Assembly (NCBI GenBank): GCA_013388755.1
Contig: JACAEQ010000124.1
Span: forward strand, 1 to 44,186
DNA from: Chloroflexota bacterium
GTDB lineage: Bacteria > Chloroflexota > Chloroflexia > Chloroflexales > Roseiflexaceae
Reading direction: 5' to 3'
DNA: 44,186 bases
Part shown: positions 10,774 through 44,021 of the stretch, one piece after another
How positions within the stretch are numbered: position 1 is the stretch's first letter
Layout: every line of letters begins with the position of its first letter
Translations under genes and position numbers: made by a program
The notes under the pieces: generated by a model
What the model was told of the DNA's origin: nothing
Database searches by the model: none
The model's input: the letters and a program-made list of their open reading frames with translations, nothing else

Positions 10774-11419
10774 GATTCGCCAGGGCGTGCTGAGCAAGAA
10801 TGACCGTCTGGCTGCCGAGTTACGTCAGCGTTTCCACGCCGCCGGCGTTTTCGTGGTGAACCTGCTCTCCAGTCCCGGCGCTGGCAAGACGCGGTTGCTC
10901 GAAGAAACGCTCCGCCGGATGGGAACCGACCTTCGCGTGGCGGCGCTGGTCGGCGACCTGGCGACTGACAACGACGCGCTGCGACTGGCACGGAGTGGCG
11001 CGCCGGTGCGCCAGATTCAGACTGGCGACATGTGCCACCTGGAGGCACACCTGGTTGAGCAGCACCTTGATGGCTGGAACCTGGACGATCTCGATGTCCT
11101 GTTCATTGAAAACGTTGGCAACCTGGTCTGCCCGACGGGATACGATTTGGGCGAAGCGGCGCGCGCGGTCCTCCTGTCGGTGACGGAAGGTGAAGATAAA
11201 CCGCTCAAATACCCGGGCGCGTTTGTTTCCGCCGATTGCGTCGTCGTTACCAAGATGGACCTGGCAGAAGCGGTTGAGTTTGACCAGCGGGCCGCCGAAG
11301 CAAACATCGCCTCGGTGCATCCGGGTGTGCCGATCGTCTATACCTCGGCCCGTACCGGCGCAGGGCTGGATGCCTGGATGGAATGGCTTGAGCATCACCG
11401 GTGCTCGAGCCACCGCTGA
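10751..11419 (+). CDS. hypB: HypB, GTPase for hydrogenase nickel incorporation
   Basis: This 222-residue SIMIBI-class GTPase has the P-loop SSPGAGKT at residues 40-47, GDLATDNDA, ENVGNLVCP and VTKMDLAE (the guanine-specifying motif). It works with HypA to load nickel into the hydrogenase large subunit. It lacks the His-rich N-terminal nickel store found in some HypB proteins. The Cys in NLVCP and the CHLE segment fit the metal site between subunits. GGAGAAAG precedes the ATG at 10751, which lies inside the hypA end, so translation is probably coupled. Confidence 0.95.
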   Translation: MSTPRLLEIRQGVLSKNDRLAAELRQRFHAAGVFVVNLLSSPGAGKTRLLEETLRRMGTDLRVAALVGDLATDNDALRLARSGAPVRQIQTGDMCHLEAHLVEQHLDGWNLDDLDVLFIENVGNLVCPTGYDLGEAARAVLLSVTEGEDKPLKYPGAFVSADCVVVTKMDLAEAVEFDQRAAEANIASVHPGVPIVYTSARTGAGLDAWMEWLEHHRCSSHR

Positions 11420-11435
11420 CGCGGAAGGAGTTCCC

Positions 11436-12494
11436 ATGACTCACCAGTTGCTTCACCCGCAGCCACTCGGCATCTTCCCGCTGCCGGCAGCCTATCTTGT
11501 CGTGCCACCGGTCACCGGCGCCGAAGAGGTATGCGCCGTTCTGCTGGACGGGTACGTGCCGGAACGTGTGCCCATCGCGCTGCGCTTCTATACACTGGCG
11601 CTCGCGAATGAGAAGCATGCCGCCTGGCTCGCGTTGACCGAAGACTCCTCGCTCGAAGCGCGTTACAATCGCTTCGTCTTGCAGAGTAAACCGGCCCAGT
11701 ATTCGTGCCTGCGTCATGAACTGGATGGCGAACTGGCGGCATTACTCGATCTTGTTGCCTACACTGCCGGCATCATTGATGCGCCGCCGGCGGCAGACAG
11801 GTTGCATGGAGAAGTTGCCGGCTGCGTGCTCCCGGCGCATGCTGCGTATGCGCTGGCGCATCACCACCCTGACCGCGCGATTGCCGCCCTGTGCCGGGCC
11901 GTCGAGGAAGTCAGCCCGATCTCGCCGCTTTTTGCCGCGCAATTGCTTGCGCATCTGGCAGAAACATATGTTCAGTACGAGCAGATGCCGGCAGCGTTGC
12001 AGGCGCTGCGTGATGCTCTGGCGTTTACCAGTGGCCGGGGCCTGCCGGATCTTCGCGCCTACTTCGCGCTCCGCCTCGGCGCCCTGTGCCAGGATCACGC
12101 CAATGGCCAGGAGACTCTGCTTCACGAAGCGAGTGTGTGGTATGAGGAGGCGCTGCGTTACTATACGCGGGACCATGCGCCCGAACCATTTGCAGCAGCG
12201 CACCATCACCTCGCACTGGCATACCTGGCCATGGCATCACACGAAAACAGCGCCCGGCTCTTTGTCGAGCGTGCGGTATGGTCATTACACCAGGCGCTGA
12301 CGGTCTATGCCGCTGAGACGCACTATGAATACTGGCACAGCGTGCAATCAAGCCTGACACAGGCGCAGCAGATGCTGCTGGCATTGAGCAATGGCCACAC
12401 CTCATCGCTGGAGAATGGGCGGGAAGACCTTGCGTCGCATGGCCAACCCGCACATGCATCCTGCATTGACACCATGGCCGTGTCGATACTGTAA
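11436..12494 (+). CDS. Unknown helical-repeat protein encoded within the hyp operon
   Basis: This 352-residue protein starts at an ATG with GGAAGGAG upstream and lies 16 bases after hypB and 29 bases before hypC, on the same strand. It resembles no Hyp protein. From about residue 130 the sequence is helical with TPR-like spacing (AAYALAHHHPDRAIAALCRAV, then AAQLLAHLAETYVQYEQMP, AAHHHLALAYLA). It has a run of His residues and no signal peptide or membrane segment. An N-terminal part of about 110 residues is of unknown fold. Its place suggests a scaffold or chaperone in hydrogenase maturation, but this is inference from context only. Confidence 0.85.
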   Translation: MTHQLLHPQPLGIFPLPAAYLVVPPVTGAEEVCAVLLDGYVPERVPIALRFYTLALANEKHAAWLALTEDSSLEARYNRFVLQSKPAQYSCLRHELDGELAALLDLVAYTAGIIDAPPAADRLHGEVAGCVLPAHAAYALAHHHPDRAIAALCRAVEEVSPISPLFAAQLLAHLAETYVQYEQMPAALQALRDALAFTSGRGLPDLRAYFALRLGALCQDHANGQETLLHEASVWYEEALRYYTRDHAPEPFAAAHHHLALAYLAMASHENSARLFVERAVWSLHQALTVYAAETHYEYWHSVQSSLTQAQQMLLALSNGHTSSLENGREDLASHGQPAHASCIDTMAVSIL

Positions 12495-12523
12495 CCTATA
12501 GTAATGAGCGAAAGGAATGCGCC

Positions 12524-12787
12524 ATGTGTCTTGGTGTTCCCGGCCAGGTCATAGAGATCTATGAGCAGCAAGGCATCCGCATGGGCAGGGTTGATTTCAG
12601 CGGCATTGTCAAAGATGTCTGCCTGGCATATCTACCGGATGTCGCTGTCGGCGATTACACAATCGTGCATGTCGGCTTTGCGATCACACGCCTTGACGAA
12701 CAATCGGCGCGCGACACACTGGCGCTGTTTCAGGACCTTGGCTTGCTGGACGAAGAGTTGCACGATGATGTGGCGGGGACAGCATGA
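12524..12787 (+). CDS. hypC: HypC, hydrogenase assembly chaperone
   Basis: This 87-residue HypC/HupF protein starts MCLGVPGQV, with the essential Cys2 that carries the Fe(CN)2CO unit together with HypD. The [15 protein letters not shown] and [12 protein letters not shown] segments are standard. The length is normal. AAAGGAA precedes the ATG. Its end overlaps hypD by four bases (ATGA), which implies coupled translation with its working partner. Confidence 0.95.
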
Positions 12788-13899
12788 AGTACCTGGATGA
12801 ATACCGCGACCCGGAACTGGCGCAGCGCTTATTTGCTGAAATCCGGCGCATAACGACCCGCCCCTGGGCGATCATGGAAGTATGCGGCGGACAAACGCAC
12901 TCGATCATTCGCAATGGTATTGATCAGTTGCTGCCAGATACGATCGAACTCATCCATGGCCCGGGTTGCCCGGTGTGTGTGACGCCGCTGGAGATCATTG
13001 ACAAAGCACTTGCAATCGCGGCCCGGCCGGGCGTCATCTTCTGCTCGTTCGGCGATATGCTGCGCGTTCCAGGGAGCGCGAAGGATCTGTTCCGCGTCAG
13101 GAGCGAAGGTGGTGACGTACGCATCGTCTACTCACCGCTTGACGCGATCCGCCTGGCGCAACAGCACCCGGATCGCGAGGTGGTCTTCTTCGGCATCGGC
13201 TTCGAAACGACGGCGCCGGCAAACGCTATGGCGGTAGTGCAGGCGCATCGCCTGGGCCTGACCAACTTCTCCATGCTGGTATCGCACGTGCTGGTGCCAC
13301 CGGCTATTGCCGCCATCATGGAGTCGCCCACGAACCGGGTGCAGGCATTTCTAGCCGCCGGGCATGTGTGCAGCGTGATGGGCACCTGGCAGTACGGCCC
13401 GCTGGTTGAACGCTATCGTGTGCCGATTGTCGTCACCGGTTTCGAGCCGCTCGACGTGCTGGAAGGAATCCGGCGTACGGTATCGCAACTCGAGGCGGGC
13501 CGCGCCGAACTGGATAATGCGTATGAGCGGGCCGTGCGGCCAGAAGGAAACGTCGCGGCGCAACGGATTCTGTCCGAGGTGTTCGACGTGACTGACCGGG
13601 CATGGCGCGGGATCGGGGTCATTCCGCAGAGCGGCTGGCGCCTGCGCGCCGCATACCGCGCCTACGACGCCGAGGAACGGTTTGCCGTCGGCGACATTCA
13701 GACGCGCGAGTCGGCGCTCTGCCGCAGCGGCGAGGTGCTGCGCGGCATGTTGAAGCCCAATCAGTGCCCGGCGTTCGGCAAGGAGTGTACGCCACGGACT
13801 CCCCTGGGGGCGACGATGGTCTCGAGTGAAGGCGCATGCGCCGCATATTACCAGTATGGACGCTTCATCACGCCGGAAGAAATAGGAGTGGCGCGATGA
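12784..13899 (+). CDS. hypD: HypD, Fe(CN)2CO scaffold protein
   Basis: This 371-residue protein forms, with HypC and HypE, the complex that builds the iron-dicyano-carbonyl part of the [NiFe] centre. Conserved features are [11 protein letters not shown], the central [10 protein letters not shown], the GFETTAP segment, and C-terminal cysteines (CPAFGKEC and GACAAYY) that hold a [4Fe-4S] cluster. The length is typical. The start overlaps the hypC stop and the stop overlaps the hypE start. Confidence 0.95.
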
Positions 13900-14954
13900 G
13901 CGACGCACTGAACTTCGAAGGCTGGAGTTGCCCACTGCCGCTCCGTGATCACCCGAATATCGTGATGGGCCATGGCGGCGGCGGCAAATTATCGGCGGAA
14001 CTGGTCGAGCACCTGTTTTTGCCTGCATTCGCGAATGATGCCGCCGCCGAACTGGGCGACGCCGCCCTTGTCGAGGTTGGCGGCACACGTCTGGCGTACT
14101 CGACCGACTCGTTCGTGGTGCGACCATTGTTCTTTCCCGGTGGTAACATCGGCGACCTGGCGGTGAATGGTACCGTCAACGACATTGCCATGCGCGGCGC
14201 GCGGCCGCTCGTTCTCAGTGCCGGGTTCATTCTCGAAGAAGGAATGCCGCTCGACCGGCTGGCAGCCATTGCGCAAAGCATGGGCGCGGCCGCGCGCCGC
14301 GCCGGGGTGACGCTCGTCGCCGGCGATACCAAGGTGGTGGATCGCGGCCACGGTGATGGTGTCTATATCAACACCAGTGGCTTCGGCATTGTCCCGCCGG
14401 GCGTAGATATCGGCCCGGCTCGCGCCCGACCCGGCGATGTCGTGCTGGTCAGCGGCGATATCGGTGCGCACGGTATTGCCATCCTCAGCGTTCGTGAAGG
14501 CCTGGAGTTCGGTGCGCCGGTCGAGTCCGACACTGCACCACTCAACGGGCTGGTCGCCGAGTTGCTTGACGAAACCCGAGACATTCATGTGCTGCGCGAT
14601 CCGACGCGCGGCGGGATGGCCTCGACGCTCAATGAAATCGCGCGCGCGTCGCAGGTCGGCATTGTGATCGAGGAACGCGCGTTACCGGTGCAGGACGCCG
14701 TGCGCGCGGCGTGCGAGCTCCTCGGCATGGACCCGCTCTATGTGGCAAACGAGGGTAAACTGGTGGCGATTGCCCCGCCCGATAGCGCTGAGCGCCTGCT
14801 GGCGCGCATGCGCGCCAACGTGCTCGGGCGCAATGCCGCGATTGTCGGTCGCGTCACCGCCGATCATCCCGGTGTCGTCGCGTCCCGTACCGGCATTGGC
14901 GGCACGCGCATCGTTGATATGATGGTCGGCGAGCAGTTGCCGCGGATCTGTTAA
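13896..14954 (+). CDS. hypE: HypE, carbamoyl dehydratase
   Basis: This 352-residue PurM/AIR-synthase-like protein begins near [19 protein letters not shown], has [12 protein letters not shown] and AGDTKVV, and ends in PRIC. The final Cys is the residue that accepts the carbamoyl group from HypF and dehydrates it to thiocyanate. The ATG at 13896 overlaps the hypD stop; an upstream ATG at 13836 would overlap hypD by 64 bases. HypF, which supplies the carbamoyl group, is not encoded in this window. A structured hairpin region follows. Confidence 0.95.
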
Positions 14955-15088: not shown

Positions 15089-15199
15089 CCTCGTAACCGG
15101 CTACCCCTGTCGTGCACGTGATGAACCAGCCGGGTGAACACAACTCAGGCGCCGACAGGCAGGCCGTTCTCGTCCACACACTCAACGAGGAGCATGGCG

Positions 15200-17272
15200 A
15201 TGAGGCTATGGAAACAACACGCGGTCTTCTGGTCGGTCGCGCTGCTGCTGGTTCTGGTTGCCTGCACGCGTCAGGCCGAGGCACCGTCCCCCACAACGGC
15301 GCCAACCGCTGCTCCGGCGGCAGTGGCCGATACCGGGCATCCGCCAGTTGATCTGGCACAGACGGCTTTCAAGAAAGGCGGTTGTGGCGCGTGCCATATC
15401 ATTCCAGGCGTTGTGCATGCCCGTGGGGTAATTGGCCCGAATCTCACCGATATCAGCCAGACCGCGACCCGGACGATGCAGAGTACGGCATACACCGGCA
15501 AGGCCAGCACAGTTGACGACTACCTGCGAGAGTCGATACTTGAACCGGACGCGTTCGTTGCACCTGATTGTAACGGCTCACCATGCCAGAAAGGAATCAT
15601 GCCGCCATCGCTCGGCCAGGGTCTGTCGCCGACAGAACTGGGCGCAGTCATTCAGTACCTGAAAGCGCCACCTGCGGAAAGTGAGGCTGTAGCGCTCGAG
15701 GAGCCCACCGCCGTTGCAGCCGACGAGGCGACGGCCCTGAGCGACGAGGAGTTCGCCTGGGCAAAACAAGTCTACTTCGAGCGCTGTGCCGGGTGTCACG
15801 CGACACTTCGTAAGGGTGCAACTGGCCCGGCGTTGACACCTGACCGGACAATCGCGCTTGGAACCGTGGGATTGTCGGCGATTATCTACAATGGCACGTC
15901 GCGCGGTATGCCGGATTGGGGCAAACAGGGCTTCTTCACCCAGGATCAGATCGAAATCCTGGCAAAGTACCTCCAGATGGAGCCGCCGACACCACCCGAA
16001 CTGCCGCTCGATGGCATGAAGTCGTCCTGGAAGCTGATAGTTACCCCTGATCAGCGGCCTACCGCACCCGAGACCCAACGCAACTGGCAGAACTATTTCA
16101 TTGTCACCCTGCGTGATGCCGGCCAGGTCGCGGTAATCGACGGCGACAGCTACGAGATCGTGAGCAATGTTGACAGTGGCTACGCCGTCCACATTACCCG
16201 CATGTCGGCGACCGGCAGATATGCCTACGTCATCGGGCGCGACGGCAAGCTGGCGCTGATTGACCTCTGGATGGAAAAGCCCACAAAAGTAGCAGAGGTG
16301 CAGGTCTGCTATGATGCCCGCTCGGTCGAGGTCAGCAAATACAAGGGACCGGAAGGCGATTTCACCGATAAACTTGCCGTAGTTGGTTGCTACTGGCCGC
16401 CACACTTCGTGATCCTGGATGGGCAGACCCTCGAGCCGCTCACAATCGTCAGCACGCGCGGCTACACGGTGGACACACACGAATACCACCCCGAACCACG
16501 TGTTGCTTCGATTGTGGCATCGCACTTTAAGCCAGAGTGGATCGTGAATGTCAAGGAAACCGGGCAGATCTGGCTCGTGAATTATGTTGACCCATATGCC
16601 CCCGTGATCAAGATGCTGCCAGCGGCGCGTTACCTCCACGATGGCGGCTGGGACGTCACCAAGCGGTACTTCATGGTGGCCGCGAACAATTCGAACAAGG
16701 TGGCCGTGGTGGACGCCAGAGATGGCAAGATGGTCGCTCTTGTGGAAACGCCGAAGATTCCGCACCCGGGTCGTGGCGCGAACTGGACTGATCCCGAGTA
16801 TGGCCCGGTGTGGAGCTCGGCGCACCTGGGTGATGCAGCCATCGTTTCAATCGGCACGGACCCCGAAGGCCATCCTGAGGCGGCCTGGAAGGCAGTGCGC
16901 GTCACGCCACTGCCCGGGGCCGGCAGCCTGTTCATCAAGACTCACCCCAACAGCAAGTGGATCTGGGTGGACATGACGTTGAACTCCGACCCGGTGCTTG
17001 CGCGAACGATCTGTGTGATCGCCAGGGATGAACCGTCCAGGACGCACAAATGCTGGGAGGCCAGTGCCTACGGACGCGCCGTGCACTTCGAGTATAACGA
17101 GGCCGGCACAGAGGTGTGGGTGAGTATCTGGGGCGATGCGAGCAAACCGGGCGAAACCGGCGAGATCGTCATCTACGATGACGCGACGCTCACGGAGAAG
17201 GCACGCATCAAGAACCTGATCACACCAACCGGTAAATTCAATGTCCATAATACGGTGTTCGATATCTACTGA
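15200..17272 (+). CDS. nirS: Cytochrome cd1 nitrite reductase with extra N-terminal cytochrome c
   Basis: This 690-residue predicted lipoprotein has lipobox Cys22 after VALLLVLVAC and a Pro/Thr/Ala tether. Cytochrome c domain 1 has CGACH at 62-66 and probable Met ligand in KGIMPP. Domain 2 has CAGCH at 196-200 and GMPDW. The d1-heme propeller runs from about 300 to the end. The second cytochrome and d1 parts carry NirS blocks: TLRDAGQ, IDGDSYEI, GYAVH, YHPEPRVA, NVKETG, LHDGGWD, HPGRGAN and TPTGKFNV. It would reduce nitrite to nitric oxide outside the membrane. The usual NirS has one cytochrome c domain and about 560-600 residues. GAGGAG lies seven bases before the ATG at 15200. No d1-heme biosynthesis gene is nearby. 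NirN is a less likely alternative. Confidence 0.9.
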   Translation: MRLWKQHAVFWSVALLLVLVACTRQAEAPSPTTAPTAAPAAVADTGHPPVDLAQTAFKKGGCGACHIIPGVVHARGVIGPNLTDISQTATRTMQSTAYTGKASTVDDYLRESILEPDAFVAPDCNGSPCQKGIMPPSLGQGLSPTELGAVIQYLKAPPAESEAVALEEPTAVAADEATALSDEEFAWAKQVYFERCAGCHATLRKGATGPALTPDRTIALGTVGLSAIIYNGTSRGMPDWGKQGFFTQDQIEILAKYLQMEPPTPPELPLDGMKSSWKLIVTPDQRPTAPETQRNWQNYFIVTLRDAGQVAVIDGDSYEIVSNVDSGYAVHITRMSATGRYAYVIGRDGKLALIDLWMEKPTKVAEVQVCYDARSVEVSKYKGPEGDFTDKLAVVGCYWPPHFVILDGQTLEPLTIVSTRGYTVDTHEYHPEPRVASIVASHFKPEWIVNVKETGQIWLVNYVDPYAPVIKMLPAARYLHDGGWDVTKRYFMVAANNSNKVAVVDARDGKMVALVETPKIPHPGRGANWTDPEYGPVWSSAHLGDAAIVSIGTDPEGHPEAAWKAVRVTPLPGAGSLFIKTHPNSKWIWVDMTLNSDPVLARTICVIARDEPSRTHKCWEASAYGRAVHFEYNEAGTEVWVSIWGDASKPGETGEIVIYDDATLTEKARIKNLITPTGKFNVHNTVFDIY

Positions 17273-34190: not shown

Positions 34191-34667
34191 CTACACCGCA
34201 TCAAGCGCGTCCCAATCCTGCAGGATCTCCCGCGCCCGCGCGATGAGCCGTGGCATCGTGGCGTCCGCCACCGCGCTCAGGCCGATACCCAGGCTGGTAT
34301 CGGCGGGCTGGATGCCCAGCAGATGCAGGCGGCGCGGAAGTTTACCGCGCACCATGGCCAGTCCGAGCACTTCCTGAAACGTCACCTGGTGTTGCGATAC
34401 TCTGACACCGGCAAACAGCGGGATCTGATCGCGCGCCAGTTCGACCAGCGTTCCCGGCGCGCGCCCTGCATCAACTGCATCCAGCACGAGCAGATCATCG
34501 CACTCCTCAACCAGAGGTAACAGGCTGAGACCCATCGTGCCGCCATCAATCAGTTCGGCGCGCACCTGCGATCCGCAGCGCGTTTCCAGCGCCTTGAGCG
34601 CGTGCACGCCGACCCCTTCATCAGTATTCAGGATATTGCCCAGGCCAAGGATCACACTGCGCGGCAT
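34191..34667 (-). CDS. Hydrogenase maturation protease
   Basis: This 158-residue HyaD/HupD-family endopeptidase removes the C-terminal peptide of the large subunit after nickel insertion. Motifs are the N-terminal LGLGNILNTDEGVGVH with the metal-binding acidic residue, LIDGGTMGLSLLP, DAVDAG, and SQHQVTFQEVL with the conserved His. The ATG at 34667 has AAGAAGG five bases upstream. Longer starts overlap the large subunit gene end. It is the last gene of the hydrogenase operon and lies 23 bases after the large subunit gene, its expected substrate. Confidence 0.93.
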   Translation of the reverse strand: MPRSVILGLGNILNTDEGVGVHALKALETRCGSQVRAELIDGGTMGLSLLPLVEECDDLLVLDAVDAGRAPGTLVELARDQIPLFAGVRVSQHQVTFQEVLGLAMVRGKLPRRLHLLGIQPADTSLGIGLSAVADATMPRLIARAREILQDWDALDAV

Positions 34668-34690
34668 AGACGCCTTCTTGATACCTCCCG

Positions 34691-36430
34691 TCATCGAACA
34701 CACACATTCAGACCAGTGGCCAGTTCACCTATGTCGCGCCCTGTGGCATCAACCATGTGGATGGCACAGGCCATGCACGGATCGAATGAATGTACCGTGC
34801 GCAGGATCTCGAGCGGCCATTCCGGTTTTGCCAGCGGTGTACCAACCAGCGATGCCTCGTAGGCGCCCATCTGCCCTTTGTGATCCCGTGGCGAAGCGTT
34901 CCATGTCGTCGGCACAACCATCTGGTAATTCGCAATCTTACCGTTCTCGATCACCACCCAGTGACCGAGCGCCCCGCGCGGCGCCTCCATGAACCCGAAA
35001 CCCTGCGCGCGCGCGGGCCAGCTCAACGGCTCCCAGCGATCGCGGTTGAATGTCCGCGTATCGCCGGTGCGGATCGTTGCCACCAGATCGTCGTAATACC
35101 CGCGCATGGCATCGGCGAACACCTTCGTCTCGATCGCGCGCGCTGCCGTTCGCCCCAGCGTCGAGAAAAGCGCCTCTACGGGTGCATCGAGCGTCTTGAG
35201 CGTCAGGTCAACCAGCTCTTTCGTCTGCGAATGGCCGGCGGCGTACATGATCAATACCCGCGCCAGCGGGCCGACCTCCATCGGCGTTTCGTTCCAGCGC
35301 GGCGCCTTCAACCACGAATACTTCTGCTCAACCTCCAGTTGTTCATATGGCGGCTTCGGGCCGGTAAAATTGAGCGCCGTTTCGCCCTGCCAGGGATGCA
35401 GGCCGAGATCGTCGCCGCCGCTGTAGCGATACCAGGAATGGCTGATGAACTCCTGCATCTTTGCTGCGTCGCGCGGGTCAGGCACGACCAGATTGTTCAG
35501 ATCCCTGTTCAGGATCGCCGCGCGTGGTACCAGGTACGATGAGGTATCGGCAATATCGCCTGCCGGGAACTCGCCCCACGAGAGAAAATTGCCCAGACCG
35601 CCGCCAATTGCCGCATACTCTTTGTAGAACGGAGCAATCGCCAGCACATCCGGCAGGTAGACCTCGTCAACGAAGCGGGTAATAAACGCGATCGAATCAT
35701 TGATCACCGCCAGCCGTTCAGCATTGAGCGCGGTATCGCTGTTCAGATCGATCGGCATCGGCACGCCGCCGACGACGAAGTTCGGATGGGGATTCTTACC
35801 ACCAAAAATGGTATGGATTGCTGTTGCCCGGGCCTGCCAGTCAAGCGCCTCAAGATAGTGCGCCACCGCCAGCAGATTCACCTCCGGCGGCAGTTTATAG
35901 GCCGGGTGGCCCCAGTAGGCGTTGGCAAAGATTGAAAGCTGGCCGCTGTCAACAATCGCCTGTACCTTCGCCTGTACCTCGGCGAAATAACCGGGCGAAC
36001 TGTTCGGCCAGGGCGAAATCTTCTGCTGCAACGCAGAGGTTGCCGCCGGGTCGGCTTTGAGCGCGTTCACCACATCCACCCAGTCGAGGGCGTGCAGGTG
36101 ATAGAAGTGCATCACATGGTCATGCACATACTGCTGGGCAATCATCAGGTTGCGGATCAGATTTGCCGCCTTTGGAATTGTGATGCCCAGCGCGTCCTCG
36201 ACGGCGCGGATCGAGGCGAAGGCATGCACCGTCGTGCAGACGCCACAGACGCGCTGCGCGAAGGCCCAGGCCTCACGCGGGTCGCGCCCGTTCAAGATGA
36301 TCTCGATCCCGCGTACCATCGTACCCGACGAATAGGCGTTCGACACAACATTGTTTGCGTCGAGTTCGGCCTCGATCCGCAGGTGGCCCTCGATACGCGT
36401 GATCGGGTCAATGACGAGTCGGCTGGCCAT
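34691..36430 (-). CDS. hynL: [NiFe] hydrogenase large subunit (group 1, Isp-associated)
   Basis: This 579-residue catalytic subunit holds the Ni-Fe site with RVCGVCTTVHA (Cys62, Cys65) and DPCMACAIH (Cys552, Cys555) near the C terminus. After His558 follows a 21-residue tail that starts MVDATGRD and should be cut off by the adjacent protease. The N terminus IDPITRIEGHLRIE is typical of membrane-bound uptake enzymes. It oxidises H2 on the outer face of the membrane, exported with the Tat-bearing small subunit. AGGAG precedes the ATG. It starts four bases after isp2 ends. Order S-Isp1-Isp2-L matches the Isp-type (group 1e-like) operons known from purple sulfur bacteria. Confidence 0.95.
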   Translation of the reverse strand: MASRLVIDPITRIEGHLRIEAELDANNVVSNAYSSGTMVRGIEIILNGRDPREAWAFAQRVCGVCTTVHAFASIRAVEDALGITIPKAANLIRNLMIAQQYVHDHVMHFYHLHALDWVDVVNALKADPAATSALQQKISPWPNSSPGYFAEVQAKVQAIVDSGQLSIFANAYWGHPAYKLPPEVNLLAVAHYLEALDWQARATAIHTIFGGKNPHPNFVVGGVPMPIDLNSDTALNAERLAVINDSIAFITRFVDEVYLPDVLAIAPFYKEYAAIGGGLGNFLSWGEFPAGDIADTSSYLVPRAAILNRDLNNLVVPDPRDAAKMQEFISHSWYRYSGGDDLGLHPWQGETALNFTGPKPPYEQLEVEQKYSWLKAPRWNETPMEVGPLARVLIMYAAGHSQTKELVDLTLKTLDAPVEALFSTLGRTAARAIETKVFADAMRGYYDDLVATIRTGDTRTFNRDRWEPLSWPARAQGFGFMEAPRGALGHWVVIENGKIANYQMVVPTTWNASPRDHKGQMGAYEASLVGTPLAKPEWPLEILRTVHSFDPCMACAIHMVDATGRDIGELATGLNVCVR

Positions 36431-36434
36431 AAGG

Positions 36435-37721
36435 TCACTCCTCTATCAGCGCATCGGCGACCATCGCTGCAAGTCCTCTGACCTGTACGTCAAGGCCGAA
36501 GTGCTTGATACCATCGGTGAACTGCAACCGGCAGTTGGCGCAGGTCATAGTGATGGTCTTCGTCCCGGCAGCCGCCATCTGGCGCATCTTCAGTTCGAAC
36601 ACTTTGTAGCGCAGCGGATCGGCCTCCTGGATGGCGATGACACCACCGCCGCCGCCACAGCAGATCGACTCCTCCCGGTTCGGGCTGATCTCGCGGAAGC
36701 TGTTGGGCGCCAGGATGCGCAGAATGTTGCGCGGTTCCTGGATGTGGCCGCCACGGCGCTGGATCTTGCAGGCATCGTGGAACGCGATCGGCCCGAGAGA
36801 GTCGTACTTGCCGGCCTGTAGTTTGATCCGCCCCTTGTTCAACAGATCGTCAATCACTGCAACAATATGGGTGATTTCGACCGGCACATCCGTCATATTG
36901 TGCGCGGTCCAGCGCAGCAAGTCGTAGGCATGACCGCACTCGGTCACCACCAGGCGGCGAACACCGAGGGATCGCGCCGCATCGAACAGCCGCGCCATAA
37001 AGAGCTTCGTGCGCTCCGGATTGCCTTCGAACACGCCGAAGTTCACCACTTCGCGCCCCGGCGTGCTGATGGTCCATTTCTCACCGGCAGCGTTCAGGAT
37101 TCGGGCGATGGCCACGACATTCTCCGGGAACTTCATCACCTCGATCGACGTGAAGACTACCAGTGTCTCGGCGCCCTGGACATCGATCGGGATATCAACT
37201 TCCCATTCGTCGGCAATCCACTCGATGCGTTCTTCCCACATCTCCTCGGTCACGCCGAGCGGGCTGCCAAGTTCCTCCTGTTTCCTGATGGCGGTCACCA
37301 GGTCAGCGGGAACCACCTGGCTGGCGGCCATGGCTTCGCGCACCTCGTGGATCAAGGGACCCAGTTGAATACCCATCGGGCAGACCATGGCGCACTTATT
37401 GCAGAGGGTGCATGCCTCATAGACAATCGTGCTCCAGTGCTGGATGTCCCTGTCGGTTACCGGTTTGTCGAGACCGAGGGCCACCTTGAGTTTGCCAGGC
37501 GGTGTGAAGCGCTGTTCATAGGCACGGCGCAGCAATTCAACCTTCCAGACCGGAGCGAACTCCGGGTTACCGGTGGCTTCGTAGAAGTGGCATGCCTGGG
37601 CGCAGATACCGCACCGGGTGCAGGCCTCGAGTTGTGTCGCCACCCAGCTACCTGTTGTCTTGACGAAGGTATCAACCGCCGTCTTCGCCACCGGCGCACG
37701 TGTGACGTCCTGGGTGCTCAT
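36435..37721 (-). CDS. isp2: HdrD-like Fe-S protein, Isp2 of Isp-type hydrogenase
   Basis: This 428-residue protein carries two [4Fe-4S] ferredoxin motifs, CTRCGICAQAC (Cys34-Cys44) and CTLCNKCAMVCP. A CCG domain follows with FHDACK, ICCGGGGG and TCANC, the cluster type that splits disulfides in heterodisulfide reductase subunit B/D. A weaker first CCG half is seen around VVTECGHAYD. It has no signal peptide, so it is cytoplasmic and membrane-associated through Isp1. Isp2 proteins receive or deliver electrons of the hydrogenase by an acceptor still not well known. GGGAGG precedes the ATG at 37721; a longer frame overlaps isp1. Confidence 0.92.
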   Translation of the reverse strand: MSTQDVTRAPVAKTAVDTFVKTTGSWVATQLEACTRCGICAQACHFYEATGNPEFAPVWKVELLRRAYEQRFTPPGKLKVALGLDKPVTDRDIQHWSTIVYEACTLCNKCAMVCPMGIQLGPLIHEVREAMAASQVVPADLVTAIRKQEELGSPLGVTEEMWEERIEWIADEWEVDIPIDVQGAETLVVFTSIEVMKFPENVVAIARILNAAGEKWTISTPGREVVNFGVFEGNPERTKLFMARLFDAARSLGVRRLVVTECGHAYDLLRWTAHNMTDVPVEITHIVAVIDDLLNKGRIKLQAGKYDSLGPIAFHDACKIQRRGGHIQEPRNILRILAPNSFREISPNREESICCGGGGGVIAIQEADPLRYKVFELKMRQMAAAGTKTITMTCANCRLQFTDGIKHFGLDVQVRGLAAMVADALIEE

Positions 37722-37731
37722 AGGGCCTCCC

Positions 37732-38409
37732 TTACGGCGCGACGGCGCGCTTGCCTGCCTGCGCACCGTGGAACGTTCGCGAGAAGAAGTAGAACATGAA
37801 ATGTGAAATCCGGCTGAACGGAATCCAGATCAACATCAGGTTGATGGATAGCATGTGCAGACTGAAGAGCGTCTCGTAGCGAAACCAGAGGTGATGGGTG
37901 GTCATGTACCCGGTGATCATGGGCAGAAACACAATAATCAGGTTGGTCCATTCCGCCGGCCCGGAGATCAGGCGTAGCACCGGGTTGATGCGCCGATTGA
38001 TTGCCAGCGCGATCATCGCCACAATCGTCACCGCTGAAAGCCAGTCAATGATCGGCAGCGCCAGTGTCGGCCAGCCAAAGCCGAGCAGACTCTTCCAGAC
38101 CAGCATATGCGCCGTGCCGAGAAAGATGACCACAAACAGCCCGAGATGGAACAACCCGCCGGCCAGGTAGGTCACCGGGTTCCGGCTGAGGGTCCCTTTG
38201 ACCCACGGGAAGAAGGGCCAGATACCAAACCCTTTCAGGTACGAGACAGCCACACCGCGCAGTTTGCTGCCACGATTCGGCACACGGTCAGCCTGCCAGC
38301 CAAGCAGGATCGTCGAGAAGAGGCGGTAGGTCATGCCGGCCATGAAGACCAGGAGCGCGGTGTAGAACATCGGGCCACGGGAGAACTCAAGGATCGCATA
38401 CCAGTCCAT
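37732..38409 (-). CDS. isp1: NarI-like cytochrome b, Isp1 of Isp-type hydrogenase
   Basis: This 225-residue membrane protein has about five membrane helices and His residues suited to bind two b hemes (His88 and His101, His172/173, His185, His203). It resembles the NarI/DsrM family (nitrate reductase gamma, heterodisulfide reductase E). It carries electrons across the membrane between the periplasmic hydrogenase and the cytoplasmic HdrD-like Isp2 or the quinone pool. GGGAGG precedes the ATG at 38409. It lies between the small subunit gene (12 bases) and isp2 (10 bases). Confidence 0.92.
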   Translation of the reverse strand: MDWYAILEFSRGPMFYTALLVFMAGMTYRLFSTILLGWQADRVPNRGSKLRGVAVSYLKGFGIWPFFPWVKGTLSRNPVTYLAGGLFHLGLFVVIFLGTAHMLVWKSLLGFGWPTLALPIIDWLSAVTIVAMIALAINRRINPVLRLISGPAEWTNLIIVFLPMITGYMTTHHLWFRYETLFSLHMLSINLMLIWIPFSRISHFMFYFFSRTFHGAQAGKRAVAP

Positions 38410-38421: not shown

Positions 38422-39522
38422 CTAGCCGATTGCCTTCCTCTGCGCCAGGTCCGCCAGCGCCACGGCAACGCCGAGCACGGCACCCGCACCAAGCGCCGCG
38501 CCGGCTGCGGTGATGGTCGGCCGCCCGACAGGGGCGGACTGGCCCTGGTAGAAACCACCCCGGTCCCAGAAGTTCGGCTCGGAGCATCCCAGACACGGAT
38601 GGCCGGACTGGATGGGAAACGACAGGCCACCGCCCCACTTCAGACCAGCGCAGGCGTTGTAGGTTGTTGGCCCTTTGCAGCCAAGTTTGTAGAGGCACCA
38701 GCCTTTGCGTGCACCTTCGTCATCGAACGACTCGGCGAACCTGCCGGCATCATAGAATGGCCGGCGCAAACAGCGATCGTGGACCGTCTGGCCGTAGAAG
38801 GTCAACGGGCGGTGCAGACTGTCGAGTTCGGGCAACGCACCAAACGTAATGAAGTGCACCAGTGTGCCGGTAAACGCTTCTGGAATGGCGGGGCAGCCGG
38901 CAATATGCGCCACCGGCTTATCGGTGATCAATTCATATGCCGCCTTTGCGCCGGTGGGATTCGGGCTGGCCATGGGAATACCACCGAATGCAGCACAGTT
39001 GCCGGTGGCGATGACGGCTGCTGCGCCAGCGGCCGCCTCTTGCAGCAGATCAACCGCCGTTCGACCACCAATCGTGCAGTACACGCCATCCGCAGCCGTG
39101 GGAATGCTCCCTTCGACGACCAGCAGGTATTGCCCGGCATACTGCTTCATCATCGCCTGCTTATTCTCTTCGGCCTGCACACCGGCCGCCGCCGAGAGCG
39201 TCTCGTGGTACTCGACCGTGATCGCATTGGTGACCAGGTCGGTCAGGGCGGGTGAGAGTGAGCGGGTCAGGGCTTCGGTGCACCCGGTGCAATCCTGAAA
39301 GTTCATCCAGAGAACCGGGACACGCGGCTTGCTGGCCAGCGCGCGGGCCACGATGCGCGCCGGGCCCGGTGTGCGTGCCAGCCGCTCCGGCAGGCCGCTC
39401 GCTACAACCGGCGCGGCGTACTGCAGGCCCATCACTCCGGCAAGAACGCCGCATGTTTTGAGAAACTGGCGGCGCGACATCCCCTGGCGCCGCAGGCGTT
39501 GATAGATCGTTTCCTCGGCCAT
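38422..39522 (-). CDS. hynS: [NiFe] hydrogenase small subunit with Tat signal
   Basis: This 366-residue subunit carries three Fe-S clusters. A twin-arginine signal (SRRQFLK, Arg17-Arg18) exports the folded heterodimer. The proximal cluster begins with FQDCTGC. The distal and medial clusters use HDRC, GCKGP, NACAGLKW and SGHPCLGC. A final hydrophobic stretch (TAAGAALGAGAVLGVAVAL) anchors it in the membrane. GGGAGG precedes the ATG at 39522. It is the first gene of the five-gene operon; a MITE-like element lies about 130 bases upstream. Confidence 0.95.
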   Translation of the reverse strand: MAEETIYQRLRRQGMSRRQFLKTCGVLAGVMGLQYAAPVVASGLPERLARTPGPARIVARALASKPRVPVLWMNFQDCTGCTEALTRSLSPALTDLVTNAITVEYHETLSAAAGVQAEENKQAMMKQYAGQYLLVVEGSIPTAADGVYCTIGGRTAVDLLQEAAAGAAAVIATGNCAAFGGIPMASPNPTGAKAAYELITDKPVAHIAGCPAIPEAFTGTLVHFITFGALPELDSLHRPLTFYGQTVHDRCLRRPFYDAGRFAESFDDEGARKGWCLYKLGCKGPTTYNACAGLKWGGGLSFPIQSGHPCLGCSEPNFWDRGGFYQGQSAPVGRPTITAAGAALGAGAVLGVAVALADLAQRKAIG

Positions 39523-39650
39523 AGGGTTCCTCCCGATGGCGAGCGGCAACAACGAACCATGCCAGCGGCGCCGGCCGCTCGCATAGACGGATGTCGCCCG
39601 TCGTGCGTTGATTGACGATCTGTCCGGTGGGAGTATGTTCCAGTCGCTAA

Positions 39651-39808
39651 GGGCCTCTCCGAATCAGGGATGGTTGGATGTCATTGTCAGCGCAGCGACG
39701 CAATCGACTGGCCCGATAGAAGATTGCTTCAGCCACGCTGCGCTCGCTGCAGGCTTTCGCTCGCGCTCCGCGCAATGACCGGCGGTGCATCATATTCGGA
39801 TAGGCGCC
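39651..39808. mobile_element. MITE-like element, copy 3
   Basis: Ends GCCTCTCCGAAT (39653) and ATTCGGATAGGC (39794-39805) are inverted repeats. The interior holds GTCATTG...CAATGAC arms around a GCAATCG/GATTGC core. The left part matches the left part of copy 1 and the right part of inverted copy 2. It sits between hynS and the lipoyl-carrier gene, so any read-through between these two units must cross it. The remaining bases 39523-39650 and 39809-39865 hold no gene that I can support. Confidence 0.7.
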
Positions 39809-39865
39809 AGGTATGCTCCAGGCAGGCCCGGCGCACTAGCACGGCCAGCGCTCACGCCGGTCACT

Positions 39866-40312
39866 TCACGAGCACGAGATATTTTCAGCATCAAGCTTCG
39901 CCTGATACGCCGCCACCCCCGCCGCGCCGGTCACCAGTGCGGCACTCTCGGCATCCCAGCTGGCCGGCTGGATCTCGACGATCCACCCCTCGCCGTACGG
40001 ATCGCTGATCGCCAGGTTCGGATCGGCGGTCAGCCGGTCGTTGAACCGCAGCAGCGTACCGCTCACCGGCGCAGGCACCGGGCCGACAAACTTGCTGCTC
40101 TCAACCGTCGCGGCGCTTTTGCCCTGCCTGACCTCCTGGCCAATGTTTTTGGCCTTGACAGTCACGGCGGTCAGTTTTCCTCCCGCGAGCTTCCCGGCGA
40201 CGCTCGTCATCCCCACGCGTACGACACCGCCGTCAAGCGGTTTGACCCAGACATGCTTATCGAGCAAGTAGTAGAGATCCTCAGGCAGGTTGCAACCACG
40301 GATCACGGCCAT
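39866..40312 (-). CDS. Lipoyl-carrier protein, GcvH/LbpA-like
   Basis: This 148-residue protein has the H-protein fold with probable lipoylated Lys74 in ATVESSKFVGPV and DPYGEGWIVEI. The N terminus starts MAVIRGCNLPEDLYY with Cys7. This RGC-type start and the VESxKxVGP block resemble LbpA, the lipoate-binding carrier of the sHdr sulfur-oxidation pathway, more than glycine-cleavage GcvH. No gcvT, gcvP or lipA is near. The tusA, dsrE and lipoate ligase genes lie upstream on the same strand. AGGAG precedes the ATG at 40312. Glycine-cleavage H protein remains an alternative. Confidence 0.85.
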   Translation of the reverse strand: MAVIRGCNLPEDLYYLLDKHVWVKPLDGGVVRVGMTSVAGKLAGGKLTAVTVKAKNIGQEVRQGKSAATVESSKFVGPVPAPVSGTLLRFNDRLTADPNLAISDPYGEGWIVEIQPASWDAESAALVTGAAGVAAYQAKLDAENISCS

Positions 40313-40434
40313 CGTGTGTCTCCTGTACGTTCATCCAGGTGGCCGACTTCCTCAAGGTACTTGAGTGTCAGGCGCGCCTCTTTCTCATTCAGCCTGGAGC
40401 CTGACGCCCACGCCGTCGGGCTGATGGTCTTTGA
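40303..40434 (-). pseudogene. C-terminal coding remnant overlapping the lipoyl-carrier start
   Basis: On the minus strand an open frame of 43 codons without ATG, GTG or TTG ends at 40303, ten bases inside the lipoyl-carrier gene (stop/start overlap as in an operon). Its end reads LNEKEARLTLKYLEEVGH, which looks like a genuine protein C terminus with normal codon use. The frame is cut at its 5' side by the 68-bp tandem repeat array. It is probably the tail of a gene that was once cotranscribed; its family is not recognisable. Confidence 0.45.
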
Positions 40435-40700
40435 CTAAATAACCCGCTCCAGCCCGCGCAGGCGGGCTTCGCTCTGGATAGCCGAGGGCTTATGGTCGTT
40501 GAGTGGTTATTCCGCTCTAGCCCGCGCAGGCGGGCTTCGCCCTGGATAGCCGAGGGCTTATGGTCGTTGAGTGGTTATTCCGCTCTAGCCCGCGCAGGCG
40601 GGCTTCGCCCTGGATAGCCGAGGGCTTATGGTCTTTGAGTGGTTATTCCGCTCTAGCCCGCGCAGGCGGGCTTCGCCCTGGATAGCCGAGGGCTTTAGCC
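40424..40700. repeat. 68-bp tandem repeat array, four units
   Basis: Four units begin AGCCCGCGCAGGCGGGCTTC at 40451, 40519, 40587 and 40655, with period 68 and only single-base changes. Each contains a hairpin (AGCCCGC/GCGGGCT) followed by TGGATAGCCGAGGGCTTATGG. The array fills the gap between the dsrE gene and the lipoyl-carrier gene. It is not a CRISPR because the units abut without spacers. Confidence 0.9.
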
Positions 40701-40767
40701 CGACGGCAAGAGGCACATACCGGATTACATGCTCAATCTTCATAAGCCCGCGGCCAGGTGCAGTCGA

Positions 40768-40784
40768 AGCCGGCTGCGCCGGCT
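40768..40784. terminator. Hairpin downstream of the dsrE gene
   Basis: AGCCGGC-TGC-GCCGGCT is a perfect 7-bp stem, about 150 bases past the dsrE stop on the minus strand. It could end the lplA-dsrE transcript. Bases 40701-40930 hold no gene that I can support. Confidence 0.35.
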
Positions 40785-40930
40785 CCCGAAAAACGTGCAG
40801 ACAGCCTGCGTGCCTGCGAGCCGAGCCCTGCAGGCCCACGGCGAACGCATATACCTGTTTTAATAATGACAGGCGGCGTAGCGTTTTGATAATCTATCCC
40901 GACACGCCAGGGCCGGTTGCCTCCTCCGCT

Positions 40931-41299
40931 TCAGAACGTCAGGACCGTCTTGCATTCCTCGGCCATCTGCCACATTGCAGCGCCGCCGACCATCTTCACA
41001 CCATCAATCAACTCGTCAACCTGGATGTCGTGGAGCTCGGTCGCGGCAGTACAGGCCGTGAATTTCACGCCAGCCTCCATGGCTTCGCGAATGAAGTCAA
41101 TCGCCGCCTTGCCGCCTGCTTTGGGATACACCGTGTCAGCGACGCCCTGCTTGAGCAGCAGAATGCCATCGATCGTGAAGAACATCGTAACGTCGTAATC
41201 CATGGCGCAGGCCAGGGTGGCGAAGAAGAATGGCGTGGCGCAGCGGCGCGGCGTCTCCGGGCCGCTGGTCATGATGATCAAGACCTTATCCTCATCCAT
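40931..41299 (-). CDS. DsrE family sulfur-carrier protein (DsrE3B-like)
   Basis: This 122-residue DsrE/F-like protein has the pattern VLIIMTSGP, a mid-protein IDGILLLKQG, and a candidate active Cys83 in AGVKFTACTAA. It also has Cys20, Cys31 and Cys116. Proteins of this family bind sulfane sulfur on a Cys and pass it to TusA or related carriers in the cytoplasm. GAGGAG precedes the ATG at 41299. It is ten bases after the larger DsrE-like gene, probably its partner, and both end in LTF. Confidence 0.85.
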   Translation of the reverse strand: MDEDKVLIIMTSGPETPRRCATPFFFATLACAMDYDVTMFFTIDGILLLKQGVADTVYPKAGGKAAIDFIREAMEAGVKFTACTAATELHDIQVDELIDGVKMVGGAAMWQMAEECKTVLTF

Positions 41300-41309
41300 G
41301 ATGCGCTCC

Positions 41310-41825
41310 TCAGAACGTCAACGTGATCGCATTGCGGCTGGCAAACTCGAGGAAGGTGGCAGCGCCGCCGATCTCGAGCCCATCAATCAGGTCGTCGCGC
41401 TTCAACCCCAGCACATCGAGCGACATCTGGCAGGCAATCAGACGCACACCCGACTCGCGCGCAATGTCAATCAGTTCACCAAGGTGCGGCACGTGCGCCC
41501 GGTCCATCCAGTTATGCATCATGGCGGTCGCAGCAGCTGTCATACCCGGTAGCATGCCGATTATGTTCGGCACCGGCAGCGGCATTGCCGGGTTGGCGAT
41601 CGGCGCGACCTGTAAGTGGTCAGCTTTGCCTTTCTTGATAATCTCCAGCCCATAGAAGGTGAAAAAGATCGCCACCTCCATGTCCATGGCAGCGGCGGCA
41701 GTGGCCAGAATAAACGGCGGGTAGGCGGTATCGAGCGTGCCATGCGAGGCAATGATCGCCAGGCGCGTGGCGCGCGGCTCATCCAGGGTTACAGCTTCCG
41801 GCTGCGCTTCGGTCAGGGCGGTCAT
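41310..41825 (-). CDS. DsrE family sulfur-carrier protein (DsrE3A-like)
   Basis: This 171-residue protein of the larger soluble DsrE/DsrF/DrsH-like type has one Cys only, Cys132 in SGVRLIACQMSLDVLG, the family's sulfur-binding position. It has no membrane segments, unlike DsrE2. DsrE3A proteins are known to exchange thiosulfonate or persulfide with TusA in sulfur oxidisers. AGGAG precedes the ATG at 41825. It lies ten bases after tusA, in the order tusA-dsrE3A-dsrE3B described for such pathways. Confidence 0.88.
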   Translation of the reverse strand: MTALTEAQPEAVTLDEPRATRLAIIASHGTLDTAYPPFILATAAAAMDMEVAIFFTFYGLEIIKKGKADHLQVAPIANPAMPLPVPNIIGMLPGMTAAATAMMHNWMDRAHVPHLGELIDIARESGVRLIACQMSLDVLGLKRDDLIDGLEIGGAATFLEFASRNAITLTF

Positions 41826-41835
41826 ACTCCCTCTC

Positions 41836-42072
41836 CTACCTGGTCTTCTTGATAAAGAACACGAACGTACCGGCTTCCTGCTCGGCGGCGAGCAATTGAT
41901 GCCCGGTCTTCTTGACGAACGCATCCATATCGCTTTGCGAACCGGGATCGGTGGCGATCATCTTGAGTACCTGCCCGACACTGAGCGTGTCGAGCGCCTT
42001 GCGAGTCTTGATGATCGGCATAGGGCAGGAGAGGCCGCTGCAATCCAGCGTCTGATCAGCGGTCACAGGCAT
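41836..42072 (-). CDS. tusA: TusA family sulfur carrier
   Basis: This 78-residue protein has the TusA signature CSGLSCPMPI, with Cys11 as sulfur-binding residue and a second Cys16, and the KTRKAL helix. It carries sulfane sulfur as a persulfide in the cytoplasm. AAGGGAG precedes the ATG at 42072; a longer frame would run into pocR. Its neighbours suggest service in a dissimilatory sulfur pathway rather than tRNA thiolation. Confidence 0.93.
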   Translation of the reverse strand: MPVTADQTLDCSGLSCPMPIIKTRKALDTLSVGQVLKMIATDPGSQSDMDAFVKKTGHQLLAAEQEAGTFVFFIKKTR

Positions 42073-42097
42073 GGTGCGTGCTCCCTTCAGTTTCAGC

Positions 42098-42847
42098 CTA
42101 TTCGAGGGACGTGATTTCGGCAATGCGCCGCAGCCGTCCGACAAGCTCGGCACGTTCATGGGCAATGGTTGAAAACGTCGTTGCAACACTTTTGAGCCAG
42201 CCGCCGAGCCGGGCGCGTGAACGTGGGTCAAGGATGCTAATGCTGGTTGCAGCATCTGCCAGCGCCTCCGGGTCAATGCCGTGCATCCCGGCCAGGCGTT
42301 GCACACGTTGCGCCACCTCGACAGGGTCCGGAGCGGCCGCGTAGACCTGGTCGGCAATCAGCAGCGCGACCGGCTCGCCATCAACGTCGATCGGTGCGCT
42401 GGCATACTGCAGGCCAGCGTGGCACGTCTGCAGGCCAGGATCGGCGCGCTCGGCCAGGCGCCGCCAGCTGGCCTGGCACGCTTGCCTGCCCGACTCGCTG
42501 GCGAGCATCAGTTCGCAGAAACGGCAACCAGAACTGACCTCGGTGAGCGGCGTCCCGTCAGTCGCCGCAGTCACCGCGCCGACCCCGGCCACTTCAGCAA
42601 AGACATTCTGGATCGGCTGGATGCAATGGAGCGGTAAAACATCCTGTGGCCGGCGCGACGCGGCCTCGGCATCTGGCTCGCCGTGTGGAGCGCCGCCAAG
42701 CAGTGCCTCGACTCCTGCGCGCGGGAAGCGCCAGTGCAACCCGATCTTCACACCGTGCAACCGCCCATCCTTCAGCATGCGGTAGACCGTGGTGCGATCG
42801 ATCTTGAGCAGATCCTGGACCTCACGCGCTGTCAGCAGGTCGTTCAT
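42098..42847 (-). CDS. PocR-domain regulator with N-terminal helix-turn-helix
   Basis: This 249-residue regulator begins with an excisionase/MerR-type helix-turn-helix (LLTAREVQDLLKIDRTTVYR and DGRLHGVKIGLHWRF, residues 4-45). A PocR sensory domain follows, with cysteines in CRFCELMLA, RQACQASW and LQTCHAGL. Four such Cys could bind a metal or react with sulfur or redox signals. The start at 42847 has only a weak ribosome site. It stands between lplA (103 bases) and tusA (25 bases) on the same strand and probably controls this cluster (inference). Confidence 0.85.
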   Translation of the reverse strand: MNDLLTAREVQDLLKIDRTTVYRMLKDGRLHGVKIGLHWRFPRAGVEALLGGAPHGEPDAEAASRRPQDVLPLHCIQPIQNVFAEVAGVGAVTAATDGTPLTEVSSGCRFCELMLASESGRQACQASWRRLAERADPGLQTCHAGLQYASAPIDVDGEPVALLIADQVYAAAPDPVEVAQRVQRLAGMHGIDPEALADAATSISILDPRSRARLGGWLKSVATTFSTIAHERAELVGRLRRIAEITSLE

Positions 42848-42950
42848 TCCGTTGCTTGCTGGTGTTTGCAATGATTTGCTATAGCAGAGTATGCCGGCGA
42901 GCCAGCGGAATGACAAGCGATCCTTTCGCAACCCGGCAGCGAGGATTCCT

Positions 42951-44021
42951 TCACTGAATCGTTGCCATGATTGCGGTGGCAAAGTCGGCAGGCGTCACAC
43001 CGGGCGACTGCACCTGGTGCGCAGCATAGGCCGACTGGAGGCGCGTGACGAGCGAGTCGTGCTGAAGATCCGCGCCAATCAATGCCTCCTCCAGCGCACC
43101 GACGGCGCTGGCCGGCAGTACGGTAAAATCCCCCGACAACGAACAATCGTCAATGCGCCCTTCGCGCAGGCGCGCCGTGACGCGGATCAGGCCGCCAGGC
43201 GCTTTGTGCGTCGCTTCAACCACGTGTACATCCTCGTGAATCTTGATGCTACGCGGGCGCAACCCGCCCTTCGTGGTAAGCCACTCCTCGCCTGCAAACC
43301 GTTCATCCAGTTCTTGCGCCAGCGCCTCCTCGCGTTCATTCAGGGCGCCGGCGACAAGCGGGCGCTGCAGAGCGGCGGAACAACGCGCAACATATAGATC
43401 CAGCACTGCGGCACGCTCAGGCGCCTGTCCCAGTTCGCGCGTCATGGTGGTCATGTAGTCCTGCAATCCCTGGAAGACCTTGTCGCGCATTTTTTCCGAC
43501 GCAACCTTCAAGACACGTGCCATGGTGGTGGTGTCGAAATCGAACATCAGGCTGCCAACCATGACCTCCGCCGTGTCGGTCGCCATGGCGCCGGTGCCGC
43601 CGATCTTCCGGCCGGCCACCTGGATATCATTGATCGGGCGATGGTAGGCGTTGATTCCGAGATGCTGATACGTTTCGACCAGTGGCTTGATGTACAGTGC
43701 GAAGCGCTCCTCCAGCGACGACGGTAGATGGGAACGCTGGAAGACCCACTGGGCAAAGACCTGGTTGCGGTCGAGGTAGACGGCGCCGCCGCCGACTTCG
43801 CGCCGGTAGACCGGCAGGCCGTGGTTCTGGCAGTACGCCAGGTCAACTTCTTTCGCCAGATCCTGGTGATACCCGATGCAGACATACGGGGTGAGGGGAG
43901 CGACCAGAATGATCGTATCGGGAGTAGCATCGTCCATCGCATGCGCGACGGCGTGGTAGACGGTCTGTGAGCGTACCGGCGTCACGAGGCCGAGGTCGAT
44001 CAGGCGAACAGGTTCATTCAC
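42951..44021 (-). CDS. lplA: Lipoate-protein ligase
   Basis: This 356-residue ligase has RREVGGGAVYLD (residues 73-84) for the lipoyl-adenylate site and the catalytic Lys138 in AGRKIGGTGAM. A C-terminal accessory domain is included from about 255 (SIKIHEDVHVVEATHKAPGG). It attaches lipoate to a carrier Lys, probably the GcvH/LbpA-like protein of this locus. The start is a GTG at 44019-44021 with AAGGAG upstream. It may belong to the sulfur-linked ligases with fused LplA and LplB parts; alignment would decide. It is the first gene of the minus-strand cluster. Confidence 0.92.
   Translation of the reverse strand: MNEPVRLIDLGLVTPVRSQTVYHAVAHAMDDATPDTIILVAPLTPYVCIGYHQDLAKEVDLAYCQNHGLPVYRREVGGGAVYLDRNQVFAQWVFQRSHLPSSLEERFALYIKPLVETYQHLGINAYHRPINDIQVAGRKIGGTGAMATDTAEVMVGSLMFDFDTTTMARVLKVASEKMRDKVFQGLQDYMTTMTRELGQAPERAAVLDLYVARCSAALQRPLVAGALNEREEALAQELDERFAGEEWLTTKGGLRPRSIKIHEDVHVVEATHKAPGGLIRVTARLREGRIDDCSLSGDFTVLPASAVGALEEALIGADLQHDSLVTRLQSAYAAHQVQSPGVTPADFATAIMATIQ

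Follow-up and report, generated by a model that had tools for sequence, protein, structure and literature searches.

LbpA proteins are lipoyl carriers that combine a lipoyl Lys with two Cys, one near each end, which are absent from the glycine-cleavage H protein GcvH (Cao et al., PMC6067878), and they were described before only as partners of sHdr, the heterodisulfide-reductase-like complex of sulfur oxidation. Isp-type [NiFe] hydrogenases are connected with sulfur as well: the Thiocapsa enzyme Hyd (HydSL) has one known major role, the dark reduction of S0 by H2 (PMC10892978), group 1e hydrogenases are assigned to S0 reduction (PMC10811913), and an archaeal group 1g Isp hydrogenase works with a sulfur reductase (PMC11018855), while the way in which these hydrogenases hand their electrons over to sulfur was unsettled. 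Here we analyzed a DNA stretch of 44,186 nucleotides from a Chloroflexota bacterium (Roseiflexaceae; assembly GCA_013388755.1, contig JACAEQ010000124.1, positions 1 to 44,186), hereafter the window, which encodes an LbpA-type carrier within the operon of an Isp-type hydrogenase. That the carrier module and this membrane hydrogenase share one conserved operon is well supported, with at least 39 bacterial genomes having it, and this suggests a link between H2 and sulfur metabolism that had gone unnoticed. In the open-access full texts searched, no account of a hydrogenase operon with a lipoyl carrier was found.

A conserved operon of carrier and hydrogenase genes

All genes of the window's operon are encoded by the minus strand, from 44021 down to 34191, as lplA-pocR-tusA-dsrE3A-dsrE3B-carrier-hynS-isp1-isp2-hynL-hynD, and profile searches back every gene call of its sulfur module and hydrogenase. 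The features are as follows.

42951..44021, minus strand: lplA, lipoate-protein ligase that fuses an LplA and an LplB domain (PF21948, PF10437; NF053749 in the LplB region)
42098..42847, minus strand: pocR-like regulator with HTH_17 and a PocR sensory domain; start codon picked by inspection
41836..42072, minus strand: tusA, sulfurtransferase (PF01206); active Cys in 32/32 related loci
41310..41825, minus strand: dsrE3A-like sulfur carrier (PF13686, DrsE_2/DsrE2-like; DsrE2 model NF047629 below cut-off); Cys in 30/30
40931..41299, minus strand: dsrE3B-like sulfur carrier (PF02635, DsrE); Cys20 and Cys83 in 37/37
39866..40312, minus strand: LbpA-type lipoyl carrier of 148 amino acids (PF01597, GCV_H-type), with Cys7, lipoyl Lys74 and Cys147
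38422..39522, minus strand: hynS, [NiFe] hydrogenase small subunit (TIGR00391, PF14720) with a twin-arginine signal (TIGR01409)
37732..38409, minus strand: isp1, TmcC/HmcE-like membrane b-type cytochrome (NF045723 and NF045716 below cut-off); His invariant
36435..37721, minus strand: isp2, HdrD/DsrK/TmcB-like iron-sulfur protein (PF02754, Fer4_8) with two [4Fe-4S] motifs and one CCG site
34691..36430, minus strand: hynL, [NiFe] hydrogenase large subunit (PF00374); best solved relative 3MYR
34191..34703, minus strand: hynD, hydrogenase maturation protease (PF01750, HycI)
40444..40695, no strand: 68-bp tandem repeat of 3.7 copies, within the dsrE3B-carrier gap
39523..39865, no strand: dispersed repeat with further copies in the window and the genome, within the carrier-hynS gap

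To find related loci, six carriers were aligned as a query against 84,980 species genomes, and 80 loci were obtained. The gene order of the window recurred, since each of the 38 further carriers with 63-82% identity was directly followed by hynS on its own strand. Given 38/38 independently found loci, the arrangement occurs much more often than expected by chance. Where the contig was long enough, tusA, dsrE3A, dsrE3B, isp1, isp2, hynL, hynD and lplA were present in nearly all of these loci, usually as tusA-dsrE3A-dsrE3B, then carrier-hynS, then isp1-isp2-hynL-hynD-lplA; pocR was found in 23 of the 27 related loci with room for it and was missing from those of Aminicenantes. The hosts were Chloroflexota (Chloroflexales, Anaerolineae), Candidatus Aminicenantes, Saccharicenans, two Acidobacteria records, an Actinomycetota metagenome-assembled genome and one record labelled Pseudomonadota. 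Nearly all the remaining loci, with carriers at 56% identity or less plus one at 58% (G257), contained sHdr or EtfAB genes; the exceptions were an isolated carrier (L134) and a few truncated contigs showing carrier and ligase genes only.

The co-occurrence pointed the same way: in a set of 400 Chloroflexota genomes, an Isp2 of at least 63% identity was present in six and a carrier of at least 69% in exactly these six, and the next Isp2-like proteins were only about 30-35% identical. In the phylum of the record labelled Pseudomonadota (G440), all 12 loci with HynS and Isp2 lacked carrier, TusA and DsrE3. When plasmids were searched for Isp2, the single distant match was of no use.

Across the operons, the active Cys of TusA, the Cys of DsrE3A, both Cys of DsrE3B, four Cys of HynL, eleven Cys of HynS, six His of Isp1 and all 14 Cys of Isp2 (36/36) were invariant, as expected if every part works. 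The gaps around the carrier in the window are unusually long because of the repeats listed above, with 618 bp between dsrE3B and carrier and 343 bp between carrier and hynS, compared with medians of 29 and 83.5 bp at the other loci. About 12 related operons, not including that of the window, contain a SpoIIAA-like (STAS-type) protein of about 106 amino acids between isp2 and hynL (L107, L113, L115, L117, L119, L120, L122, L123 and L130 among them), which may act as a regulator or form an additional subunit.

Elsewhere in the window, the hydrogenase maturation genes hypB, hypD and hypE lie at 10751-14954 (plus strand), about 20 kb from the hydrogenase on the same contig. Near hypD and hypE, positions 15134-17272 (plus strand) encode a NirS/NirN-like protein of 712 amino acids, in which cytochrome c and cytochrome D1 heme domains are combined. 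A two-domain thioredoxin/glutaredoxin-like protein of the protein disulfide oxidoreductase type is encoded at 3824-4522 (plus strand).

An LbpA-type carrier in a genome without sHdr

Cys7, lipoyl Lys74 and Cys147 are strictly kept in 39/39 carriers, while the hallmark Cys occur in 0/16 GcvH. In the phylogenetic tree, the hydrogenase-linked carriers formed a 100/100 clade that is sister to the sHdr LbpA (95/86), and GcvH was separated at 99/98; one frame-shifted extraction (L023, end branch 10) was disregarded. The Pfam GCV_H match and the structure model, which has the GcvH fold with a predicted local distance difference test score (pLDDT) of 95.8, would also suit a glycine-cleavage H protein. 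This identity is ruled out by the tree, by Cys7 and Cys147 and by a separate gcvT-gcvH-gcvPA-gcvPB locus with its own GcvH in the same genome; the window carrier also scores under the GcvH equivalog cut-offs. By sequence, the carrier is thus called LbpA-type. It stands on a new branch by gene context, as hydrogenase genes take the place of the published hdr-like neighbours in 39 genomes.

Two further carriers were observed beside this family. The isolated L134 (10001-10447) is a lone 53% paralog among unrelated genes that groups with the hydrogenase carriers in the tree; it lacks both Cys, its lipoyl site reads ESLK, and it is probably decayed or repurposed. In some genomes, the region 3' of the hydrogenase operon encodes another lipoyl carrier (HYD2), which lacks the Cys, together with a further ligase and radical SAM proteins resembling LipS1/LipS2 (L084:1345-5243, L050:17818-19432).

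The sequence-only reading of the window had noted that the hdr-like genes normally expected beside lplA-pocR-tusA-dsrE3A-dsrE3B and the carrier are missing, and this holds for the whole genome (G000; 5.08 Mb, 100% complete). At E<=1e-10, no sHdr-type HdrA was found in it. Its other CCG-domain proteins had GlcF (two), LdhH, TfrB (a 776-amino-acid protein), GlpC and YdiJ as best models; none ranked the HdrB model first, and no sHdr HdrB-like protein was found. Among the 38 other operon genomes, sHdr HdrA was not found in 34, and the four that have it carry separate LbpA copies at the sHdr locus where checked. The same reading had left two explanations, a split locus or a new pairing with the Isp hydrogenase. 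A split locus, in which the carrier would serve an sHdr complex encoded elsewhere, would agree with the kinship of carrier and ligase to those of sHdr-EtfAB loci (the window LplA is 57-63% identical to the ligases of L051, L086, L087 and L088). It was rejected as barely credible given these distributions of sHdr HdrA and LbpA, for the window's genome on the condition that its assembly does not miss such a locus. The new pairing is strongly supported at the levels of gene order, co-occurrence and phylogeny (38/38 loci; 100/100 clades), and neither of the findings that the sequence-only reading had named as refuting it, a complete sHdr locus elsewhere with its own LbpA or a carrier placed inside GcvH with gcvT and gcvP present, was made in this genome.

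LipS1/LipS2 lipoate synthesis is present in most sHdr genomes. LipA, LipS1 and LipS2 were not found in the window's genome, which therefore has GcvH and an LbpA-type carrier yet no detected lipoyl synthase; LipS1/LipS2 were found in three genomes (G035, G065, G399).

CCG proteins of the DsrK type usually act on DsrC. DsrC was found in 27 of the 38 other operon genomes (G420-G457), many of the proteins having both C-terminal Cys, and in one of 14 control genomes; some of the genes adjoin sulfite-reductase-like and DsrMK-like genes. This co-presence may reflect a wider sulfur-reduction network. DsrC was not found in the window's genome, one of 12 such genomes among the 39, so as a general substrate of Isp2 it is impossible there.

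Isp2 and a possible route from H2 to sulfur

The hydrogenase has the gene order hynS-isp1-isp2-hynL of group 1e Isp [NiFe] hydrogenases. Compared with solved structures, HynL matched 3MYR best (862 bits; next 729), the Isp-type enzyme of A. vinosum, and the hydrogenase is described here as group-1e-like. The Isp2 proteins of carrier operons grouped together with 100/100 support, and the carrier-less Isp2 set was their sister group. Those of carrier operons are 30-43% identical to carrier-less Isp2, while HynL is 57-72% identical. Within carrier operons, the mean Isp2 identity is 70% at a HynL identity of 78%, compared with 49% at 70% in carrier-less ones; these pairs are not independent, and the excess conservation of Isp2 is suggestive. 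The Isp2 cluster ligands are alike in both sets. The Isp2 structure model, of medium confidence (pLDDT 72), resembles HdrB and EtfD, which is support rather than proof.

Given the gene content, order and strand, the recurrence and the invariant residues, we infer the mechanism, direction and chemistry as follows. The operon equips a group-1e-like Isp hydrogenase with an LbpA-type carrier of its own, a lipoate ligase, TusA and at least two DsrE3 proteins, most likely for H2-driven sulfur reduction, a reading to which we assign a probability of roughly 0.55. LplA would lipoylate Lys74 of the carrier, and TusA and DsrE3 would hand sulfane sulfur to its dihydrolipoyl thiols and/or Cys7/Cys147; H2S would depart and the lipoyl disulfide would form. 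The placement of HynSL outside, of the cytochrome in the membrane and of the CCG protein in the cytoplasm is most simply read as outward H2 oxidation and inward reduction of the lipoyl disulfide: electrons would pass by way of the Isp1 heme b across the membrane to Isp2, whose CCG-bound cluster would reduce the disulfide. The net reaction would be H2 + S0 -> H2S, with energy conserved by charge separation, as in the H2:heterodisulfide systems of methanogens, with a protein-bound lipoyl disulfide replacing CoM-S-S-CoB. The absence of a detected DsrC from the window's genome favours this reading.

Several points weigh on the other side. Lipoylation, contact between carrier and Isp2 and the direction of flow are themselves predictions, and up to now LbpA has been described from sulfur oxidation (PMC6067878). 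Other Isp hydrogenases apparently function in sulfur reduction while lacking a carrier, so a carrier is not strictly needed. The window's genome, with neither LipA nor LipS1/LipS2 detected, apparently must scavenge lipoate or use an undetected route, and where DsrC is present, Isp2 could reduce it. One alternative is that the electrons flow in reverse, so that carrier-bound sulfane sulfur is oxidised and the hydrogenase acts as an electron outlet for the oxidation of thiols or sulfur, through Isp2 and Isp1 to quinone or, at low H2 pressure, to H2. All known LbpA act in sulfur oxidation (PMC6067878), the carrier branches within the sHdr-LbpA family, and the Thiocapsa Hyd is reversible (PMC10892978). 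However, the reported role of Isp hydrogenases is sulfur reduction, and the sHdr-type oxidase is missing as described above. Moreover, with potentials of about -290 mV for lipoyl thiols and -414 mV for H2, the formation of H2 from the thiols is endergonic in the standard state. We consider reverse flow unlikely, though the strongest of these rivals.

It is less probable still that Isp2 acts on DsrC, a low-molecular polysulfide or glutathione persulfide, the carrier only moving sulfur with TusA and DsrE3. The resemblance of Isp2 to DsrK, TmcB and HmcF, the existence of carrier-less Isp hydrogenases and the DsrC of most operon genomes would agree with this, but DsrC is absent from 12/39 genomes, that of the window included, and the constant neighbour is the carrier and not DsrC. 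Very improbable is a supply of sulfur by TusA, DsrE3 and the carrier for iron-sulfur assembly or maturation of the hydrogenase: gene adjacency is the one argument for it, and against it stand closely similar hydrogenases (HynL 59-65%) without the module, with the same Isp2 cluster ligands. Compared with these alternatives we prefer H2-driven reduction, in which lipoyl-bound sulfur could exchange electrons with Isp2. We are evenly divided on the wider proposal of a membrane hydrogenase:lipoyl-disulfide oxidoreductase whose Isp2 reduces a sulfur-carrying lipoyl protein. Protein-bound lipoate would then serve sulfur energy metabolism in a second way, independent of sHdr, and the operon would have been transferred as a unit from phylum to phylum.

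The operon offers a concrete candidate acceptor for Isp2. If the proposal is true, one branch of Isp hydrogenases gains a physiological electron acceptor, lipoate extends to H2-linked sulfur metabolism, and H2-dependent sulfidogenesis is predicted in many uncultured Chloroflexota and Aminicenantes. The genes lbpA, tusA and dsrE alone are unsafe as markers of sulfur oxidation.

Comparison with known systems

The sHdr-LbpA pathway of Hyphomicrobium and Thioalkalivibrio (PMC6067878, PMC10332631) shares with this operon the lipoyl Lys and N-/C-terminal Cys of LbpA, an LplA-like ligase and a relay of TusA and DsrE. The operon differs in that sHdrA/B are missing, that the hydrogenase supplies the neighbouring CCG protein, Isp2, and that the carriers form a clade of their own. 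The sHdr loci with EtfAB and an EtfD-like protein (L051, L086, L087; the Thermomicrobium roseum cluster, PMC6776052) also have LbpA-type carriers and a related LplA, and reside in some of the same genomes; their tandem carriers, the first copy being 47-58% identical to the window carrier, lie by HdrB/HdrA/EtfAB/EtfD-like genes and not by a hydrogenase.

On the hydrogenase side, the group 1e enzymes of Thiocapsa, Allochromatium and A. ferrooxidans (PMC10892978, PMC2621215) have the same gene order, a twin-arginine small subunit, an Isp1 cytochrome b and an HdrD-like Isp2, whereas here lipoyl carrier, TusA, DsrE3 and LplA are fixed in the operon. Isp1/Isp2 of the Acidianus group 1g hydrogenase (PMC11018855) likewise serve H2-dependent sulfur reduction, but the partner there is the sulfur reductase SreABC, with no lipoyl carrier described. 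DsrMK/TmcBC/HmcEF, methanogen HdrDE and HdrABC-Mvh are likewise systems in which electrons from H2 reach a disulfide at an iron-sulfur site of the CCG type, the membrane forms having an electrogenic arrangement, and their substrates are the DsrC trisulfide or CoM-S-S-CoB, in contrast to the lipoyl domain proposed here.

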